Source: Chromera velia (lineage: Eukaryota; Sar; Chromeraceae). Taken from it: a DNA stretch of 25,000 nt. The stretch is from NCBI GenBank assembly GCA_018398765.1, contig JAHBMJ010003429.1, positions 1 through 25,000 of the forward strand. The letters are read 5' to 3'. The notes beneath the pieces are model-generated. The model did no database searches. It was not told where the DNA came from and saw only the letters and a list, made by a program, of their open reading frames with translations. The translations under genes and the position numbers were made by a program. Shown here one piece after another: positions 1 through 18,359 of this stretch. Position 1 is the stretch's first letter, and each line of letters opens with the position of its first letter.

Positions 1-21
1 GGGGGGGGGGGGGGGGGGGGG
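1..21. repeat. Homopolymer G run at window edge
   Basis: Twenty-one consecutive G bases open the window. A run this long at a sequence end more often reflects a sequencing or assembly edge than biology, although the next 500 bases are also G-rich. Confidence 0.8.
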
Positions 22-479
22 AGGTACTGGGAAGAATAGGACGGGCAGACCTAGAGGCAGGCCTAGGGGGGGTTGAAAAGGAGGAATGAGTCTATCGGTG
101 CCGGGGGGAAGGGATAGGCTGGTGATGGGGGCCGGAGTGCAGAGCATGGACATAGGTGCATAGACGAGAGAGAACTCCATAAAGAGGGATCGGGTCTGAC
201 TCAGATCGGCATCGTCAGAGGAATATGATGGAGGGGCGAACTCCGGCTTTGCCACACCGAGGTCAGGAGAGGAAGAGGCGGGACGCAGGATCCCGAAACG
301 GGCAGTCCCTCTATTCCGTCCTGCGTCTGCAGAGAGGGGGAGGAAGGTGCTAAACGCATACCAGATTCATCCCCCAAGTGTTCTAATGGATGGGGGGAGG
401 ATTAACTATGCTGACCTCGTAGATCTGCCTGTATACAGGCAGCCCAGAAATGGTGGGTTGGGGGGACAGAGATGGCAGT
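22..479. other. G-rich stretch without recognised gene
   Basis: No convincing reading frame or motif was found here. The plus strand is G-rich, with several runs of five to seven G. It may be the 5' untranslated or leader part of the retroelement downstream, but no long terminal repeat or element boundary can be seen. Confidence 0.4.
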
Positions 480-540
480 ATAGCATGGACAAAACGAGAA
501 CAATCGAGGCTATCCTGAGGTAGGAAACAACTCCCAGGGA

Positions 541-1198
541 GGCGAGGGAGGAAGTTCTCTCCTTCCTCAGGGACTGCTCAGTCGAGGGGGATTTGGATTT
601 CCTAGGCCTGACCGAGCTGATCTACACGATGGTGGTGGCGAGGCAGCGTCTACATGGACTCTTTGCTGAGAGGGGGGAGGGGCAGAGCAAGGGGGAGGGA
701 CATGGTTGACTAGGACCTATGACGGACTGTTCTTCTGGTCAGTGCATGTTTGATGTGGCCTTTGATTTTTCTTTCTTTTCATCTATAGTAGACGAAATGA
801 GGGATAAGCTGGCAGGGTTAAATGACTGTCTTGATACTGATCTGAGGGATTATGGGGGCTTTGGCAGGGAGAGCATAAGGCAAAAGATCAAGGCGGAGTT
901 AGACTGTCTTATACTCAAGCTCGTTGGGTGCAGGATGCTTATTGCACTACTTGATGTGCATGGGGGGGAACCATATCCGGTTTGTGCACAGAGAGTGGAA
1001 ACATGCAAATGCGCATTGACAGTTGTCTTGGTTGCTAAGCCTTCCCATCCTCCTTCATACACTTTGAAGGTGCTGCCGGCTTCTCCTGATGATCGATATA
1101 GGGCGTGGTCATACAGTCGGACCTTGTTCAGGAAAGGATGTCGACAAAAGATCATGAGAAGATTGATCCTGTTTCATTTTATCGCTGCTTCTGTCTGA
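541..1198 (+). pseudogene. 5' coding remnant of the retroelement
   Basis: Two frames look coding. One runs from about 541 to 710 and ends in a stop before 719; it reads like an amphipathic helical segment (…LTELIYTMVVARQRLHGLF…). The second, 719-1198, contains a helical stretch (…ESIRQKIKAELDCLILKLVG…). Both have the same spacing of Leu, Ile and Arg/Lys. No named domain was recognised. They lie just upstream of the endonuclease on the same strand, so they are probably its N-terminal part interrupted by stops and shifts. A CCHH zinc finger like that reported for related elements was not confidently located. Confidence 0.4.
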
Positions 1199-1201
1199 CT
1201 T

Positions 1202-1712
1202 GAGTTGGGGAATAGTGCGTACAGTAAATATTTGAAGGAGGTGAGGAGTGCGCATAGAGAAACAGGTGGGCATGCTGGGTGGTGGGACAGGAAAGTGATT
1301 TACATGGTTTGGTCCCAATGGAAGAAAGACCTGTATCTCGGGAGTACGATGAGAATGGCGCTTAATCCTAGCGCTTAATCGCATCATGCAGCACTTCTAT
1401 ACAGCTTTGCGATCACGGAGGGAGGGTTGGGCAGCGAATAAATTTGGGCGGGGGTATGCATATCATTTTTACTCAGTGCTGTCTAGTGATGTTTCTCGTC
1501 ATGCTTTCTTCGTTGTATTACCTCTGGCATGGGTGGATGGTGGACAAATAAGTCTTCGTATGATGGAATTGCTTTGTATTAGAGCGTATCAACCGATGTG
1601 GAATACTGTGGATGTCTTAAGGAAGGAAAGGAATGACCCTTCAATTGAACTGAAACCAGAACGCTCCCGTTTGTCTGCCCGTGCGTGCAGGAGAGGTTCA
1701 GGTTATACTTAG
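1202..1712 (+). pseudogene. GIY-YIG endonuclease domain, disrupted
   Basis: From 1202 the frame reads into VIYMVW (1295-1312) and, after eight residues, LYLGST (1331-1348). These match the GIY and YIG strands of the GIY-YIG nuclease fold. A 13-base near-duplication (1358-1380) then shifts the frame. Past it the domain continues with an R..QH helix, a later MMELLCIRAYQPMWN segment carrying the metal-binding Glu, and the terminal Asn. In this family the Glu binds the catalytic metal and the Tyr/Arg residues support cleavage. In Penelope-like elements the domain nicks target DNA for target-primed reverse transcription. A stop at 1710-1712 separates it from the middle region, which follows in the same frame. 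Confidence 0.72.
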
Positions 1713-1742
1713 CTGAGACATAAGCTTCGCTCCTCTCTGTGC

Positions 1743-2666
1743 ATGACGAAGGAGTCGGGGAAACTTGAGAGGGGAGGTATTTTCCTCTCTCATAATAGAT
1801 TTATGCAGAGGGTAGGTGGGAAAAGGGGGGATGAGTCTGGGGATGTATGTGTTTCTCTTTTTCGTAACAGACTTTTTATGATGTTTTTCAAGAAGGTGTT
1901 TCCTGATAGGTCGATCAGATCTGTCAATGCCAGTAAGGATGATCATATCAAGGCATGTATGAGGAGGGTTCCGAGAAGGGGAATTCTTACTACACGCAGA
2001 CACACATTTGACATAAACGTTAAACGTCTGTATGAATTGAATAGATGGTCAATGATGGAGATACTGAAAGGGAAGTCGATTTCTATTCACCTTCCGCTTG
2101 CTGACTGTCCGAAGTTCAGGGTTTTTTACTTTTGTCAGTTCGAATTGATCAGAAAGGAAGTTGCTCCACAGAGCTCAGTTCATCTGAGACTCCTGCCGTC
2201 AAAACTCAAAAATTTGAAACAGATGCTTGACAATACATACAAGGTTTGTTTTGATGCTCCTTCTGAATTGTATGGTAACTTGCATGATGATTGTCCTTGC
2301 ATTCGAATCGCTCGACTTCTCGATCTGCCCCTTCTGGAGGGACATGCATGTGCATTTCTTTCTTCTTCTCCATCTCTCCGTTCGCTTTTCTCTCTCGCTT
2401 TGAATTTTTTGTCTTCATGTAAATTATGGCCGAACAGTGGATCGTGGGCAACAGTTGAGAAGGGGATTGACTTTTTTGTTTCTTCTCTTGTCTCCCCAAG
2501 GGGTTGTAGGAGGGGATGTCTCGGCTCTGCCCGGCATGGTCAGGGGAGGGGGGGTGGTGGAGGTGTGTCTGCAGTGGTTATGGCAGACCTAAAGGAGAGG
2601 TGGGTGACTACTCTTTTATGTGCTCCGTGCTCTGAGGAGGGGGCCCTCCCTTCCGAAGAAGGCTAG
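1743..2666 (+). pseudogene. Middle region of retroelement polyprotein
   Basis: A 307-codon open stretch continues in the same frame as the second part of the endonuclease domain. It is rich in Arg, Lys and Phe for its first 200 residues (for example FMMFFKKVFPDRSIR) and becomes Gly/Arg-rich and low-complexity near its end. No domain was recognised. Its position between endonuclease and reverse transcriptase suggests a linker or N-terminal RT extension. Its frame gives way to that of the RT somewhere in about 2560-2660, so an indel or an unseen splice is needed to join them. Confidence 0.45.
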
Positions 2667-4082
2667 GATGGTGAAAAAGTTGTTGGATGTGTTGGCTGTT
2701 ATCCTGGTGGATAAGGCTTGAGGTGATCTAACCTTTCTATATGCATGGAAGTATAGCCAAGCTATAAGAACGGCTTTCATAGATAACCGATCGTATGCTA
2801 TCTTACAACAGGCGGACTTTGATTGCGCTGTTAATGATCTAGTGAGTGGCATCGCGGACTAGTCTGCTGCCCTGAAGTCTTTTCTTTCATGTTTTGGTCC
2901 CTTGAATAGAAGGAAGCATCGTTTTGGGACTGGTCTTCTATGGGCAAAGAGGAAATCTTGGGGGGACGATGGTTGGTTGCCCGCGGGCTGGTTGTTTATC
3001 AAATATTGCCCGCTTGTCTCATATGCGTTGCGTGGACGTAAGTCTCTTTTTTCCTTTGCATGTAAATATTTAGGCCTGCTTCGTTACTTCGGCCCTCACT
3101 GTGACTTAAACTCGACTTTTTCTTTTTAGGAATGTGTGTCTGTATTCAACGCCGGGTATGGACATTCCGCTGATCGGTCTGAACGGCTTTCGCTGAAGCT
3201 TGACTGGCCTATTGGTTACATTAAGATGGTTGTTGATGATATCAAGGCTTTCTTCCCCTCCCTCCCACGCGATGCCTTTTTATTGTCACTTAGAAAGTTC
3301 GTCGCGAGGGTGAAGGCAGAATTTCGACACAGATATATTGTTCTGCCGAAGTTCCGTCCTTTCTGTAAGAAGGAGGCTGAGGGGGCATGTGGAGAGGCAT
3401 GGGTGTCACGCAGATAATATGTGAACCCTGTTGCCTTCTTGTCCTCTCACAACAGATTCGTAGATGCCATCTCATGCCCTATTGATGTCCTACTAGAGAT
3501 CGTTGATCTTGACTTTTGTACTAATCTGATTCATGTTCATGGACGACTGATTCGACAGAAGGAAAGATTCCCTCAGGGGAGCCCATGCTCTCCTAGGGGG
3601 ACGAGATTCTTTGCAGCCTGGCAAGAGTTCTCGGTTACTGATTCTTTCTCTGTTTCATCTTGGGAAGATAAGTCATGGTTTGGTGTATATGATATATGGA
3701 TGACCGCTCTCTTTTTGTTCATTTTTCTGGCTGTGCTTCTTCTAATGTAATGAGTCTTTGGGATGGGAGCCCTCCTGCTTTACTTTTACAGGAAGATCTT
3801 TACAGTCCTGAATGTGTCTTGGAAAGGCAGGGAGGCTCCACGGTGCTGGGGCTTCGGATTTTCTTTCTCCAACAGGCACCCTCTGTTTTGCTTTTTACAG
3901 CTGCAAACCCTAATCGGGATGCTCTCGTCGAATGGTATCATAACCTGTGTGTTTTTTCCTTTTCTTGCCTCCATAATTTCGATAATGTTCTTCCATTCCC
4001 TCCTTTCCCTACCCTGAAGAGAGTTAGATTCATCTATGGTTTTTCTTACATTCTTCGCTTGCAGGAATGGTCGGACAGATAA
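2641..4082 (+). pseudogene. Reverse transcriptase, interrupted by stops and a frameshift
   Basis: One frame from 2641 to about 3690 carries VDKA-stop-G (2707-2724), which resembles the DKG motif of Penelope-like elements. It then has KYCPLVSY (3001-3024; fingers motif, normally RPIVS), DIKAFFPSLP (3238-3267; motif A with the first catalytic Asp) and PQGSPCSP (3571-3594; motif B). The frame then changes, and YMDD (3693-3704; motif C with the other catalytic Asp residues) is read in another frame, followed by VLGLRI (3843-3860; the FLG-type primer-grip region). In-frame stops are at 2719, 2860, 3127 and 3415. The intact enzyme would copy element RNA at a nicked chromosomal site. All key catalytic residues survive, so decay looks fairly recent. 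Confidence 0.75.
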
Positions 4083-4580
4083 GTTTGAATGTATTGTGTT
4101 CCTTGCTTTCCTGTAATGCCCTTGCTCGTATTCTTATTGATGAACTGACTTTTCTTTTTCTTGAATGCTTTCTTCTTCGTTGGCCTTTTCGTTTTCTTGT
4201 AAAAAATTTTTTTGATGTCATTGCTCATTCGAGGAGTCCTTCGTTCATCGCATTATGGAATGAAAGAACTTTCTTTCTTTTTACTGTTCTTGGTTGATTT
4301 TGTTACATTCCCTCCTTTGATGATTAATCTTCTTATGTTCTTTCCTGCTTATACCATTGAGTGCACTATTCACCTGCTGGAAGCGATAGACAAAAGACAC
4401 AGCAAAGGGGAAAAGGGGGTCGCGCACATCGGTTCTTATGCCTTATCCTGTGCTTCTCGATTGATCAGATGTTGCATTCTTGAAGTCAGTCCGTCTGATA
4501 TTGCATGCACGGTTCCGGCGTGTCAGCACCATTGTATATGCGATCAGATCCATGACTTCTTGCGAATGATGCGCGTGTAG
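4067..4580 (+). pseudogene. Possible C-terminal remnant of retroelement
   Basis: Two overlapping open stretches (4067-4297 and 4212-4580) follow the reverse transcriptase on the same strand. The first is rich in Leu and Phe; the second ends with a Cys/His-rich segment (…VPACQHHCICDQIHDF…) before a stop at 4578-4580. They could be the RT thumb and tail of the element read through frameshifts. No conserved motif was recognised and chance open frames are possible. Confidence 0.3.
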
Positions 4581-5312
4581 AAAGTACATACATTAATTAT
4601 TCACTTTTTTCGGCGTCCCCGCCCGGCTCGCACAAAAGTAAAATTTTTTGCATGCATTCTTTTTGCTCGATTATTTGACTTTCCCAGAAGTGAGAGCATG
4701 CCGTCACATTGACCAATCTTGGAGATGGTGATTTCAGTAGAGTCCACCGTCGGTCCCTTAGCAAACAGTACGTGCATAGCAGGACTGTCTTGGCTGTTGA
4801 AAGAGAACTAATCATACTAGAACATTCCTACTACTCATAGTAGTATATAAATTATAACTAAAATTACATAAGTTTACACATTTTTTTTTTTTGTTTCTAT
4901 CTCTAATTTTATATGTTCAGCTGCAAATGGAGCTTTGAATAAACGTAAGTCTTTTTGGTTTTCCTACTAAATCTCTCTCCAACAAGAATTTTACAGAAAC
5001 GTAAACTCACAATGTATTGCTATGGTGAATATGTTGAAAATTCTGCTAGAAATTCCTTGTGAGGAAGTCTTTGTTGTTTTTTGTTCAAATGTTGTAAACT
5101 CCATCCTCCATCCTCCTATAAAAGATTCCGCTTTAAATTTCACATTTTAGGAAGGCAAAAACATTCTCTGTGGTCCAGGAAAAGCCGGCATCCAAGCATA
5201 TGAAAACAGAAAAGAAAACGAGAGAAATGAAACTGGAACAGACGTCAGCTTTTGTATGGAATTATCAACCAGACGAGATTTAGAGCATATTGTTTGTTCC
5301 AATGAGGGGTCA
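4581..5312. other. AT-rich spacer, no gene seen
   Basis: After the retroelement the composition becomes AT-rich, especially at 4820-4900, which includes a run of ten T. No coding frame with domain-like content was seen on either strand. The last part carries the first poorly preserved traces of the minisatellite. Confidence 0.5.
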
Positions 5313-6262
5313 TACACGCAGACAGACAAGAAAGATGAAGACTGAAAGGTCGTTATGTGAGGTGACAAGGAAGATGAAAGTGAAGCGGACTTTCTGCAAG
5401 CAGACGGGCTAGCAGATAGGCCCTTAATGCGCAGGCAGGAAAGATGGAAGCTAGTGGAAAGTAGTCATGTAAGCCGGCAAGATAGACAAAAGTGGAGAGT
5501 CGTCATGTTCGACAGCGCACGACAAAAGAAAGTAGAGACCCACCAAGTAAGCAAAAAAGAAAGATGGAAATATGAAAGTGGAGAGGCCGTCGTGCAAGAA
5601 AAAAGAAAGAAAGATGGAAGTGGAGAGGCCGTCATACAAACAGATAGAGAGACGGAAGTGAAGAGGCCGTCATGCCAACAGACAGAAAGATGAAAGTGGA
5701 GAGGCCGTCGTGCAAGAAGACAGAACGATTAAAGTAGAGAGGCCATCATGTAAACAGACAGAAAGATAAAAGTGGAGAGGCCGTCGTGCAAACAGACAGA
5801 AAGATGGAAGTGGAGAGGCCGTCATGCAAACAGACAAAAAAATGGAAGTGGAGAGGCCGTCGTGCAAACAGACAGAAAGACGAAAGTGGAGAGGCGTCAT
5901 GCAAACAGATAGAAAGATGAAAGTGGAGAGGCGCCATGTAAACAGACAGAAAGATGAAAGTGGAGAGGCGCCATGCAAACAGACAGAAAGATGGAAGTGG
6001 AGAGGCGCCATGCAAATAGACAGAAAGATGGAAGCGGAAAGGTGTCATGCAAACAGACAAAAAGATGAAAGTGGAGAGGCCGTCATGCAAACAGACAGAA
6101 AGATGGAAGTGGAGAGGCCGTCGTGCAAACAGACAGAAAGATGGAAGTGGAGAGGCCGTCATACAAACAGATAAAAAAATGGAAGTGGAGAGGTCGTCAT
6201 GCAAAGAGACAGAAAGATGGAAGTGGAGAGGCCGTCATTCAAGCAGGAAAGGTGAAAGTGGA
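5313..6262. repeat. 38-bp minisatellite array
   Basis: Roughly two dozen head-to-tail units are present, with a consensus of 38 bases built around AGATGGAAGTGGAGAGGCC followed by GTCGTGCAAACAGACAGAA. Units at 5690-6240 are nearly identical. The left part (5313-5620) is increasingly diverged and irregular in length, and several units near 5890-6040 lack one or two bases (GAGGCGTC, GAGGCGCC). Consensus units have no stop in several frames on either strand, so the array gives long overlapping open frames of Lys/Arg-rich or Ser/Leu/Cys-rich peptides. These are treated as by-products of the repeat rather than as genes. Confidence 0.9.
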
Positions 6263-7171
6263 GAAAAGTTCAACGTCTGCGTGTTTATCTTCATATAGGA
6301 CTTCTGACCTGAAGATTTGATCCTCTCACCACGTGTCCAGACAGAAGCTTGATTGAACTATGTATGTAGAGTTCGTAATAAGGTCAGTCAAAAAGCTGTT
6401 GCTTAGCTGTACGCACAGACGCAGGATTGACTGCAAATTTGGACCTACTGGTGGGACTGTTACCTCCATCTTCCAGATGTACAGGAGAATATACAGCTAT
6501 GTCTGTCCCATACCAATTCTTTTTTACCATCGAAGATCCTATAGCTTAATTAAATGCATTGGCGTGGCCGAGATCGATCTTGTGCCATGCACTGGCGTCC
6601 CGCACATATTGCTTGAGGGGCACGTTTCTCTCTGCATGTTGTGCGGAGGGATAGATTGTTTTCTCGTGACCGTTCGCACGGAGCCCGCCATGCATGACGG
6701 ATGGGTGTCGCGATCAGGCTTCACTCGCGTGCATTACCCGTTGACCCGGGTCGCGGGGGTATACAGAACTAGACAAGAACCGAGGCCCTGGGCCCCGGCA
6801 CTGCGTCACGGTGAACTAGTTATAATTTTTCTTGCTTTCCGGGGCCGTTCGCAAGCTTGCTTGCGTCAGATGCGCGTCTCTGACCTCGGCATGCCACTTT
6901 GAATGATAAGGCAGAGGGCCCGCGGGCCACAAAATTAAGCCGCGCGCTCGCCGGGTTTGCCGGGATCTTGCCGGGGCCCGCGAACATGCAATCACTCGAG
7001 ATCGTCGCGCCGAGTCTGACCAGTCTGACTTCACAGTTAGAGGATCAACCTTGTGCTTCACATATCCAACGTGATCGCTTGTCTTTCGTCTCATCGCTGT
7101 CAAGTCTGTTCTCGTTTCTGTTTTTCGTCTTCTGAGTGGTGTGAAGCTCGCTGAAAAGGCTTGAGTTGAAG
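6263..7171. promoter_or_regulatory. Upstream region of the NagB/PIG-L fusion gene
   Basis: About 900 bases separate the minisatellite from the first ATG of the downstream gene. The stretch 6640-7020 is GC-rich compared with other spacers, unlike the AT-rich stretch next to the retroelement. A 180-codon open frame at 6360-6902 has no domain-like content and is treated as chance. A pyrimidine-rich stretch just before the gene (7080-7135, TCGTCTC and TTCTCG type) may mark a 5' leader. No defined TATA box or operator was identified. Confidence 0.35.
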
Positions 7172-14925: not shown

Positions 14926-15585
14926 TCATCTCCTTCTCGCTTCCGGTTCATTGAGCCAATTCCACGCAACGTTAATCCGCATCATCTTCTCTTCATCACC
15001 GTGGTAGCGATCAGGGTGGTACTTCAGAGACAGCTTTCTGTACTGCTTGCGGAGGTGACTGAAATCAGCCCAACAGTGCGCCTCCAGCACCTCGGCGGCC
15101 TCGCACCACTGATCTCTGGAGGTGAAAAAGGAGGAAACCCAGTTGAGAAAGCTATTAATGGCCCACTCAGCCCACTCTTCAAACACCGTGCCTACATACC
15201 AACCAACTGCTGCGCTACCAAGCAACCCACCAACAACAGCACCGACGATGGGGCACCAGGGGCAGGCCAACCCGACCACCGAGGTGAGCCCGGCGGCGGC
15301 GTAACCCCCAGCGTATCCACCAACCACAGAACCAGCGCCCCCGCCTATTGAGCCGCCAATAAGTTCCCCTCCTGTTCTTGCAGTTGAGCCAACAACACCT
15401 ACGACCCAATCGCGTACAGCTGCGGGGCCAGATGCGTAGCCCCGCCGAGAGGACCTCGAAATCGCCTTGACGATGTTCATGGACGTTTGGAACATCCAAA
15501 AGCGGCGGTCCGTCAGGAGTCCGAGCCCATTCATGTAGCTGGCGCTGTGCATATTGACGAATGCCAACTCGTTTGCGCTCAACAC
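14926..15585 (-). CDS. Glycine-zipper and J-domain (DnaJ-like) protein
   Basis: The C-terminal part is a J domain. It reads FSHLRKQYRKLSLKYHPDR with the HPD tripeptide at residues 190-192, numbered from the GTG at 15585. J domains stimulate the ATPase of Hsp70 chaperones through HPD. Before it, residues 70-135 form a hydrophobic glycine-zipper hairpin (GGSIGGGAGSVVGGYAGG, then a CPWCP turn, then VGAVVGGLLGSAAVG), typical of membrane insertion. The start is uncertain: the frame is open upstream to about 15667, and the first ATG is at 15552. The segment SSRRGYASG near residue 50 resembles a mitochondrial presequence cleavage site (inference). A PARP-like frame lies just upstream on the same strand; the two may be one gene broken by a frameshift. 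Confidence 0.72.
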   Translation of the reverse strand: MLSANELAFVNMHSASYMNGLGLLTDRRFWMFQTSMNIVKAISRSSRRGYASGPAAVRDWVVGVVGSTARTGGELIGGSIGGGAGSVVGGYAGGYAAAGLTSVVGLACPWCPIVGAVVGGLLGSAAVGWYVGTVFEEWAEWAINSFLNWVSSFFTSRDQWCEAAEVLEAHCWADFSHLRKQYRKLSLKYHPDRYHGDEEKMMRINVAWNWLNEPEARRR

Positions 15586-15623
15586 GTGTTGCAGACTGCG
15601 CCTGTGGATTTCTCCTCCGATGT

Positions 15624-16118
15624 CTACGTAGACTCCCCGGTGGATTCCGATTTGAACTCTGCCAGCCTGTCGCCGTCAAAGTCTTCGACAGTGACTGCAG
15701 TACGTTCCACAAGCTGCTCAAAAGATGGCGGCCTGAAGACAACCTCTGAATCACCATGAAGCGACAGCGCTTTCTGCGCCATCAACTTCTTGAAATCTTT
15801 GCAGGCCACAATGATGGAAAAAACGACAGGGGTGGAAAACCGGCCCGCCTGACGCACTGCTCGGTTTGCATACCGCTGCGCCTCCACCCTATCACACGAG
15901 GTGTAGATTCCCTTCCCGTGTGCCGTGTGCCGCTTCCCAGGCTTCATGCTGGGGATAAAGCCGTCTCTTTCAATGCTTTTTGCCGCTTCGGAATCTGTCC
16001 CATGGTACAAAGTAACGCTGTCCGGGCACAACCAAACGCCACAAGCACACGGATCTGCTGCAAGACTCTGTTGGAAGAGGAACGAAACCAATAAAATGGG
16101 GACAAACTGCCCAAACAT
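15624..16118 (-). CDS. Small secreted PARP-like ADP-ribosyltransferase
   Basis: This 164-residue frame starts with a hydrophobic signal peptide (residues 1-20, ending SLA-AD). It continues with LYHGTDSEAAKSI (37-49), GF, then HGKGIYTS (67-74), A80 and RY (82-83), and SEVVFRP (124-130). This matches the PARP catalytic core in order and spacing, with His39, Tyr72 and Glu125 as the candidate H-Y-E triad. Such enzymes transfer ADP-ribose from NAD to proteins or other acceptors. It is very short for the family, with no regulatory helical domain, and the secretory signal is unusual for a PARP. The frame stops at 15624 while the neighbouring frame is open across this point. It could be a complete secreted enzyme or the front part of a longer protein. 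Confidence 0.72.
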   Translation of the reverse strand: MFGQFVPILLVSFLFQQSLAADPCACGVWLCPDSVTLYHGTDSEAAKSIERDGFIPSMKPGKRHTAHGKGIYTSCDRVEAQRYANRAVRQAGRFSTPVVFSIIVACKDFKKLMAQKALSLHGDSEVVFRPPSFEQLVERTAVTVEDFDGDRLAEFKSESTGEST

Positions 16119-16633
16119 TTTCGACTCAAAAACGGGCTCTGAACAGCTGTACGTGTCACGAAGGAGACGCAGACGCGGAGACGGCAGGCCAGCAAAGGAG
16201 ACCGCCAGAGATTCAGACTGAATCCTGCACCTTGTCTCATCAATCGGTTGAGAAATGCTCAGAAAGATTGGGTCAATTTCTGTCAGGTGAACGTTGACTT
16301 TGACTAGAGCAGGTCAGCCAGGTCTTGACTGATTATTCTCTTGGATTATAGTAGGGTATAGGTTCTTGGATTGACTCTTGACTGCCTGGAGTTCCCGGAT
16401 GCAGTCTGATCCGGTCTGATCGACTTGCATGAAGGCCGGCCGCATTAAAATCGGCCGTCCGACCGTCGGCGCGGGGCCGGCGCGTTGGTCGGATCCTCCA
16501 AACAGTTCACATGCATTGCATGACTTCAATGACTGCTTTTCGACGTGCATACTGAGTGCTTGGACTTGTCGAAGGCTCACAAAGCACTGAGGCAGAGATT
16601 TTCAGTCTGTGTGACTGTGCGTGAGACCTGGTA
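16119..16633. promoter_or_regulatory. Divergent intergenic region
   Basis: This 515-base spacer separates the minus-strand PARP-like gene from the plus-strand TPR gene, so it should contain promoters for both. A GC-rich patch at 16434-16495 includes repeated GGCCG and CGGCC words (for example GGCCGGCCGC near 16435). No TATA box or named factor site could be assigned. Confidence 0.4.
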
Positions 16634-18359
16634 ATGAGTGCTGATTTAGCTTCTGCCTCAGAGGCAAGTGTTTCGGATGGCGTCTCCCTCTTTGGAGGCA
16701 TCTCCCGATCCTCTTCCCAAGAGACGGGAGGTCTCTTGGGAGGTTCTTCTTCTTTCTCTTATTCCTCCCTTCACCCGAACAGCACACAAATTCCTGCAGA
16801 TGAACAAGCTGACGTCTCCACAGAGAGTGATGCAGGTTGGTTTCTCTCTGCATGCCGTCTCTCCATGCATGTCTTCATTCTAGAGTCTAGACTTCATCAT
16901 TCGTTCCAAAGAACGTGCGTGTGCTACGCTGTTTGAATACATCTGTGCCGCTTGACTGCTTGCAGAACAGACTCGCCTGGAGCTCATTCAGTTGTTCTGT
17001 AACGACTTGAAGGAAATGATTCTGGACTTCAACAGCAAACATGTGGCTGGGGCCTTGGAGCAATTTGACTTTTCGATTTACTCTCTGAAGCTCTACCTCT
17101 TCAGCGATCACGCCCGTGCGTGTCTTTTGCAGTTGATTCCTGATGTACCGATGTCTATTTGGTTCCAGTTGTGTTCTTCGTATCAGCTTCTGGCTGCTCG
17201 GTTGCCTCCCCAAGAGCGCGATGAGCTCACCGACTTCCTTCTGACTGTCGTTGAAGTGCACAAAAAGTCAGACAGAGGCCAATTAAAGAGCGTAGACGGA
17301 CTCTTGAGCTATGTTCTGACGATCCAATCCCACGAGCTGGCCAGCCGAGGGCAGTGTAAGCTGGCCATAGAGAAGTATGAGGAGGCATTGCGGTTGAGAA
17401 AGATGGTTTACGGGGTCGACTCAGCGCCCACCGCCGCCACTCTCAACAGCATGGGATTGGCCCTAAAGAGGCAGGGGAGGTTTGATGAGGCGATGCGGAC
17501 ACTCGAGGAAGCGTTGCGAATCAGAAAGAAGGTGTTGGGGGAAGAGAATCGTGAGACTGCCGCTACAATTCACAACATTGCCATGGTGTTTGAAAGTAAG
17601 GGGAGGCACGCGGAGGCAATTGAATGGCATGAGCAGGCGTTGGGGGTCAGAAAGAAAGTTTTTGGAGATGAGCATCCTTCCACTGCCGCCACCTTCAAAA
17701 ACATTGGGTCGGTTTTAAAGAGGCAGGGGAGGTTTGAGGAGGCAACGGAAAGGCATGATGAAGCGTTGCGTATCAGGAAGAAGATTTTTGGGGAAGAACA
17801 CGCTGAGACAGCCGCCAGTGTGCACTGTATTGCAGTGGTGCTTGAGAGTCTCGGAAGGTATGAAGAGGCAATGGAAATGCATGAGCAAGCGCTGCGGGTA
17901 AAAGGGAAGGTTCTTGGTGGGGAGCATCCTTCTACTGCCTCCACGCTGAACAGCATGGGGTCAGTGTTACGGAAACAAGGGAAGTTTGATGAGGCAGTGG
18001 AAAAACATGAAGAGGCATTGCGAATCAGAAGAAAGATTTTTGGGGAAGAGCATCCTGAGATTGCCGCCTCAGTCCATAACATTGCTGAGGTGTTTGAGAG
18101 TTTGGGGAGGTACGCAGGGGCCATGGAAATGCACGAAGAGGCGCTGCGAGTAAAGCGTCGCGTGCTTGGGGAGAGTCATCCCTCTACTGCATCCACCATC
18201 AATAGCATGGGGTCGGTGCTGAAGAGGCAGGGGAGGACTGACGAGGCCATGCAGAAGTTTGAGGAGGCGCTGGAGATCAGAAAGAAGGTCTGGGGGGCGC
18301 ATCATCCTGAGACCGCTGCCAGTGTCCGTTACATGAAAGATGTCTGGGGCTCATGCTAG
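16634..18359 (+). CDS. Kinesin-light-chain-type TPR repeat protein, 2 exons
   Basis: Exons are 16634-16835 and 16966-18359, joined in phase 1 to make a Glu codon (intron of 130 nt, GTTGGT...TTGCAG); the product is about 531 residues. The N-terminal 67 residues are Ser-rich and probably disordered. Residues 70-190 form a helical region not matched to a family. Residues 226-519 hold seven 42-residue TPR units of the kinesin-light-chain kind (pattern: ...GRFDEAMEKHEEALRIRKK..GEEHPETAAS), preceded by one diverged unit and followed by a truncated one. Such repeats form a right-handed scaffold for protein binding; the partner is unknown. No catalytic domain is present. Large families of this protein type occur in chromerid algae and cyanobacteria. 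Confidence 0.88.
16836..16965 (+). other. Intron of the TPR gene
   Basis: This 130-nt intron runs from GTTGGT to GCTTGCAG. Its removal restores one frame between the Ser-rich leader and the helical region. The acceptor is preceded by a weak pyrimidine tract (GCCGCTTGACTGCTTGCAG). Confidence 0.75.

Follow-up and report, generated by a model that had tools for sequence, protein, structure and literature searches.

A decayed retroelement copy at the start of the window

We analyzed a 25-kb window of the Chromera velia genome, that is, the whole stretch of DNA presented here, which forms the start of contig C3301 in a 177.8-Mb assembly of 4,040 contigs. The window opens with a mobile-element copy that has decayed and in which endonuclease motifs stand ahead of a reverse transcriptase (RT). 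A blastn comparison with the full-length copy L015 showed that the complete unit, which we call family A, is 5,857 bp long, and that the window carries positions 1055 to 5857 of the element at window positions 9 to 4830 on the plus strand. The initial annotation had given the element as 1202 to 4082, which is too short. The 5' part is lost at the contig edge, which lies within a poly-G run (1 to 8), and stops and frame breaks occur throughout the copy; the motifs described below therefore sit in different frames. Other copies extend about 1 kb further in the 5' direction. The contigs of L010, L013, L022 and L023 also stop near element positions 1055 to 1070, and N gaps follow positions 1054 and 1051 in L021 and L028, respectively. 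Several copies have a contig end or a gap at the poly-G run near position 1050 of the element, where the assembly probably breaks.

Read from the 5' side, the window copy begins with the C-terminal part of an upstream protein region (200 to 704), which lies in the frame of the endonuclease region, contains no domain known to Pfam and has no relevant Pfam match in the relatives. It is followed by an 87-nt GT-AG intron (705 to 791) and by a Cys-rich motif (983 to 1012; CxxC ... CxC in the relatives) located 5' of the endonuclease. The endonuclease is marked by the GIY-type motif VIYMVWS (1295 to 1315), the YIG-type motif LYLGST (1331 to 1348), the Arg/His helix NRIMQHF of the GIY-YIG domain (1377 to 1397, in a different frame in this copy) and the Glu ... 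Asn motif MMELLCIRAYQPMWN (1560 to 1604). Between the endonuclease and the RT lie the CxC motif HDDCPCIR (2283 to 2306) and a +1 switch of frame around ACT CTT T (2598 to 2661). The RT region (2629 to 4294) is decayed, and it carries motif A VDDIKAFFPSLP (3232 to 3267), motif B FPQGSPCSP (3568 to 3594), motif C YMDD (3693 to 3704) and a motif D-like stretch CVLERQGGSTVLGL (3813 to 3854). The last feature is the 3'-terminal stretch (4429 to 4830), which corresponds to a pseudo-long-terminal-repeat (pLTR) unit. All motifs named in the initial annotation are thus found on the plus strand, with the GIY-YIG motifs (1295 to 1604) upstream of the RT motifs (3232 to 3704). The bias of informative sites among codon positions supported the reading frames assigned to the upstream region and to the early endonuclease, and was flat in the middle of the element. 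Between element positions 4660 and 5560 of family A, which cover the end of the RT and the sequence that follows it, informative sites peaked at first codon positions, unlike in the rest of the element.

A search of the genome with a 317-aa piece (1713 to 2666) gave at least 125 scored matches. By identity, most of these fall into three broad tiers (79-91%, 42-54% and 34-40%), and a few short pieces lie between them. Our sample of family A consisted of 20 of the closest matches, making 21 sequences with the window. Family B was represented by L029 and L030 from the middle tier and short pieces of ten more copies, family C by L031 and L032 from the third tier and short pieces of five more, and family D by the two copies L053 and L054. 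Four families were seen, and the genome holds at least that number. The proteins of families B, C and D are 34-54% identical to that of L015, and family D is 48% identical to family C. Alignment showed that the GIY-YIG positions are common to families A to D; the families also have RT motifs A, B and YMDD in common, and the order of endonuclease and RT motifs is the same in B, C and D. In family C, one frame of 738 aa runs from the Cys motif and the endonuclease into the RT in L032, and one of 676 aa in L031 connects the linker with the RT. In the family D copy L053, positions 1497 to 4529 of the reverse strand are in a single frame with one stop. Since the order recurs in families B to D and both C and D have a single frame, the association of the motifs is not due to chance. 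Thus, the proposed search for relatives bore out the permuted order, with the endonuclease ahead of the RT, and the outcome of two separate elements is excluded by the shared 5.9-kb unit that the copies represent and by families C and D, where a single frame carries both domains.

The 3' end of the element is reached in 20 of the 21 family A sequences (L020 and L025 end 2-4 nt short of it, and L028 breaks at 3335). The flanks differ among the copies except in L009 (contig C3569), which has the same insertion and 3' flank as window positions 7 to 6056 at 95% identity; we take L009 to be an allele or a segmental duplicate of the window copy. In all six copies that contain element position 1 (L009, L015, L016, L017, L021 and L028), a repeat of 359-404 bp from the 3' end of the element stands in front; it adjoins position 1 directly in five of them and with 7 extra bases in L028. 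This is the pLTR or partial tandem arrangement known from Penelope-like elements (PLEs) according to passages of PMC11167929. Another eight copies (L011, L012, L018, L019, L020, L025, L026 and L027) begin inside the element without the 3'-end repeat, which looks like ordinary 5' truncation. The remaining seven (the window, L010, L013, L014, L022, L023 and L024) were left out of this count of 5' ends owing to contig ends, gaps or rearrangements. As candidate target-site duplications, matches of 4-6 bp were found in 9 of the 13 two-ended copies, with offsets of up to 3 nt allowed and no chance control. We think it very probable that the window holds a decayed copy of a 5.9-kb retroelement with GIY-YIG before RT, likely a PLE with an N-terminal endonuclease, for which target-primed insertion is predicted.

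The host is a chromerid, as had been supposed: the EukProt protein P0002, which is the gene model Cvel_29589 of Chromera velia CCMP, matches contig C3204 of the assembly, with its first 72 residues identical and two more pieces at 95%, the differences lying at the piece ends. Two further EukProt proteins, P0001 and P0003, carry the label Prorocentrum lima. Their identity to L015, the query copy, is 97-98%; against the best genomic copies, P0001 reaches 99%, and P0003 reaches 93% and 98% on either side of the intron. From these identities, the labels likely reflect contamination by Chromera RNA, and a recent transfer to P. lima is less likely. The lineage of the element is apparently transcribed. 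The published Chromera assembly has 193.6 Mb with about 30 Mb of transposable elements, and the word Penelope does not occur in its main text (PMC4501334).

The frame offset before the reverse transcriptase

Where both frames are open, the RT frame is at +1 relative to the endonuclease frame, as in L011, L012, L015 and L019 of family A and L029 and L030 of family B. Of the 20 family A sequences that span the switch, 18 show its pattern, as do all 12 family B copies. The exceptions in family A are L021 and L027, which have base changes within the pattern, and L009 has an insertion just 3' of it. Comparison of families A and B showed that protein conservation follows the endonuclease frame up to RWVTTL or RWVSTL, and then the RT frame. 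Over the first 18 nt, the mean BLOSUM62 score per residue between A and B was 4.5 for the endonuclease frame, compared with 0.62 and 0.91 for the other two. The RT frame scored highest in nt 15-39, by a modest margin (2.12, with 1.46 and 1.45 for the others), and in nt 39-66, where it had 2.68 and the others 0.94 and 0.45 (all without a significance test).

Our preferred reading of these data is a programmed +1 frameshift near CTT-T, which is predicted for families A and B. The offset could instead come from a spliced tiny intron of 37 nt (GTGGGT...GAG), or the RT could start from its own ATG; we regard this explanation as possible, and on balance doubtful. The element does have another intron and, on a reading of the sequences by eye, excising the 37 nt would bring both families back into frame. 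An ATG in the RT frame lies just downstream in L015, and it is absent in L012. However, neither a tiny intron nor a separate start agrees well with the switch of conservation between the frames, or with families C and D, in which there is no offset. We know of no other PLE with a recoding step between endonuclease and RT.

Relation to Penelope-like elements

PLEs with an N-terminal endonuclease, Naiad and Chlamys, were reportedly described by Craig et al. in 2021, and the order of endonuclease before RT is already known from them. Other features of this group are a linker with a CxC motif between the two domains, an insertion-in-fingers domain in the RT and the targeting of microsatellites, and a CCHH motif is present in Naiad and absent in Chlamys. 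In the Chromera element, GIY-YIG is N-terminal to RT within one element, as in this group. The CxC motif of the linker was also found in all four families, as DCPCIR in A, SCHCRE or SCRCIE in B, PCPCEH in D and ACPCRS in L032 of family C (AYPCRS in L031). Two general features of PLEs were found as well, namely, the pLTR or partial tandem arrangement in all six copies with a 5' end and a spliceosomal intron kept in all 15 genomic copies that span it. These sequence features suggest that the element is likely a PLE of the Naiad/Chlamys kind.

Several results weigh against this assignment. Sequence searches tied neither the RT nor the endonuclease to any named PLE protein. The list from the fold search of the RT contained no RT at all, only unrelated, mostly helical chains, and the low-confidence fold search of the endonuclease placed I-TevI at ranks 48 and 50 of the 50 shown, the other 48 rows being different chains matched mostly on N-terminal helices. 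The AlphaFold2 models were poor, with a mean pLDDT of 40.3 and 44.0 and values below 40 in the endonuclease region; in the RT model (mean 40.3), residues 1-435 were below 50. One row of the endonuclease region matched DUF7575 (E 0.0071) better than any row matched GIY-YIG. Microsatellites lay within 40 nt in only 1 of 14 5' flanks and in none of 19 3' flanks.

Pfam found no match above cut-off on the element. GIY-YIG matches in the relatives were weak and below cut-off, RVT_1 matches to the RT were weak, and the further weak matches (DUF7575, Zn_Ribbon_1 and others) concerned one row each. Of the 1,759 RVT_1 candidates in the genome, 150 were scored, all over the cut-off. Searches of PDB sequences gave no match, and profile and fold searches found no RT relatives outside the Chromera-like copies. 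The telomerase RNA-binding domain (PF12009) had no match in the element and none in the controls either. No LINE-type endonuclease (APE-type or restriction-like) was matched by Pfam in the proteins scanned, Pfam being weak or absent on the RT itself, and no maturase of group II intron RTs was matched in 26 RT rows, on which the profiles are likewise weak. As for a hammerhead ribozyme, Rfam gave no match at gathering in 12 sources, which is weak evidence of absence; up to E 5 in five sources, it gave two matches below gathering to unrelated families and no hammerhead.

An independent retroelement lineage, in which GIY-YIG was joined to an unrelated RT and the result merely resembles a PLE, would account for an RT and an endonuclease too diverged for Pfam to match above cut-off, for the lack of a PLE relative in the searches and for the long upstream protein region, which to our knowledge canonical PLEs do not have. 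We consider such a lineage improbable, because three further Penelope traits occur together in the element, that is, the pLTR in 6 of 6 copies, the retained intron and the CxC motif.

The element retains its intron in the genomic copies, since an 87-nt stretch starts with GT and ends with AG in all 15 copies that span it and is missing from the transcript-derived protein P0003 (E 4.7e-13), which reads ...GEGH-DQMRDEL... where the genome has the 87 nt between these residues. The stretch contains an in-frame stop, and splicing would therefore join the upstream and endonuclease regions. For rotifer Penelope elements, parts of PMC3846280 report an intron in the ORF and describe how genes that contain introns have spread. 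The stop site is TGA in 14 of 15 family A copies and TGACTAG in 13 of them, TGACTAG in 8 of 9 aligned family B copies (two more stretches are unaligned), TGACTAGG in both family D copies and TGACTGG in all five aligned family C copies (one more is unaligned). TGACTAG (window 707 to 713) lies at the 5' splice site of family A and at the same place in D, and B has a similar stretch.

The conserved UGA-CUA-G between the upstream and endonuclease regions could instead be read through in the fashion of gag-pol. Readthrough is documented for the context UGA CUA (G) (sections of PMC4207609 and PMC4359377), and a stop of the TGA/TGACTAG type is kept in families A, B and D, with TGACTGG in C. However, P0003 lacks the GT-AG stretch that contains the family A stop, and the two family D copies differ in frame across the stretch. 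P0003, together with the GT-AG ends found in every one of the 15 copies, displaces readthrough as the main route in family A, and we think it very unlikely. Enumeration of GT/AG pairs was not used: most copies gave many options, one B copy gave none and C lacked the anchors, and in L012, the one A copy tried, the transcript-supported pair was omitted. The weakest alternative, a GIY-YIG gene that merely neighbors an unrelated retrotransposon, would fit the window, where the two motif sets lie about 2 kb apart in different frames, but it is refuted by the recurrence of the same-order unit across both parts in other family A loci and by the single-frame families C and D, and we give it practically no weight.

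Predicted expression and comparison with known elements

We infer that the spliced pre-mRNA would be translated as one polyprotein, and that translation of families A and B would involve a +1 ribosomal shift just 5' of the RT. The endonuclease would then nick DNA, and the RT would copy the element RNA from the nick by target-primed reverse transcription. Copies truncated at the 5' end and head-to-tail partial tandems would be the products of such insertion. Given that the intron is retained in the genome, the RNA used as template would be either unspliced or antisense; such templates are discussed for other Penelope elements in parts of PMC3846280. We tentatively propose, as a possible further interpretation, a deep alveolate clade of endonuclease-first PLEs with two gates, that is, the retained UGA-CUAG intron and a programmed +1 frameshift. 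Because the 5' end of the intron carries UGA-CUAG, unspliced RNA would yield the upstream protein alone, and the frameshift would set the ratio of the nicking to the copying enzyme.

According to a 2025 paper, PLEs were unreported in the TSAR supergroup before Ectocarpus (PMC12477816). We found no report on Chromera velia and Penelope in the open-licence papers searched; among the titles and abstract beginnings listed there, the element is unreported under alveolate Penelope elements and under PLEs with readthrough, and no Penelope element with a frameshift like the present one is reported. The element is therefore likely a new alveolate member of the PLEs, with a predicted recoding step. Three findings go beyond the initial annotation, namely, the protein region upstream of the endonuclease, the intron and, in families A and B, the +1 frame offset. 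If the membership is true, it extends the endonuclease-first branch to the alveolates, the relatives of malaria parasites, and a multi-family, apparently transcribed lineage in a close apicomplexan relative would fill a gap in TSAR. A common ancestor of PLEs and telomerase RT is described in a passage of PMC3846280, and RT sequences from this lineage would add deep branches to the PLE/telomerase tree. If real, the +1 shift would be a recoding step between endonuclease and RT.

The window contains other features. Downstream of the element, a 38-bp minisatellite with 18.5 copies occupies positions 5567 to 6264, and it is also present in L009. A 467-aa reading frame (16956 to 18356) has many tetratricopeptide repeats (TPR_12, E 1.5e-101). 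On the minus strand, two frames overlap at 14929 to 16313, one with a PARP catalytic-domain match (E 6.5e-5, under cut-off) and the other with a DnaJ domain (E 7.2e-11); they are possibly one spliced gene.

Compared with Naiad and Chlamys, the Chromera element is similar in having GIY-YIG before RT, a CxC motif between them, pLTR repeats and no hammerhead match in Rfam. It differs from them in its alveolate host, in the long region before the endonuclease, in the +1 offset that two of the four families have ahead of the RT and in that a microsatellite bias was not seen in its flanks. With the canonical elements Penelope and Poseidon, it shares GIY-YIG and RT, pLTRs, partial tandems and a spliceosomal intron in the genome (portions of PMC11167929 and PMC3846280), but the order of RT and then endonuclease in those elements is reversed here. 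The Chlamys element of the brown alga Ectocarpus resembles it as a PLE within TSAR (part of PMC12477816); the host there is a stramenopile, whereas the host here is an alveolate.
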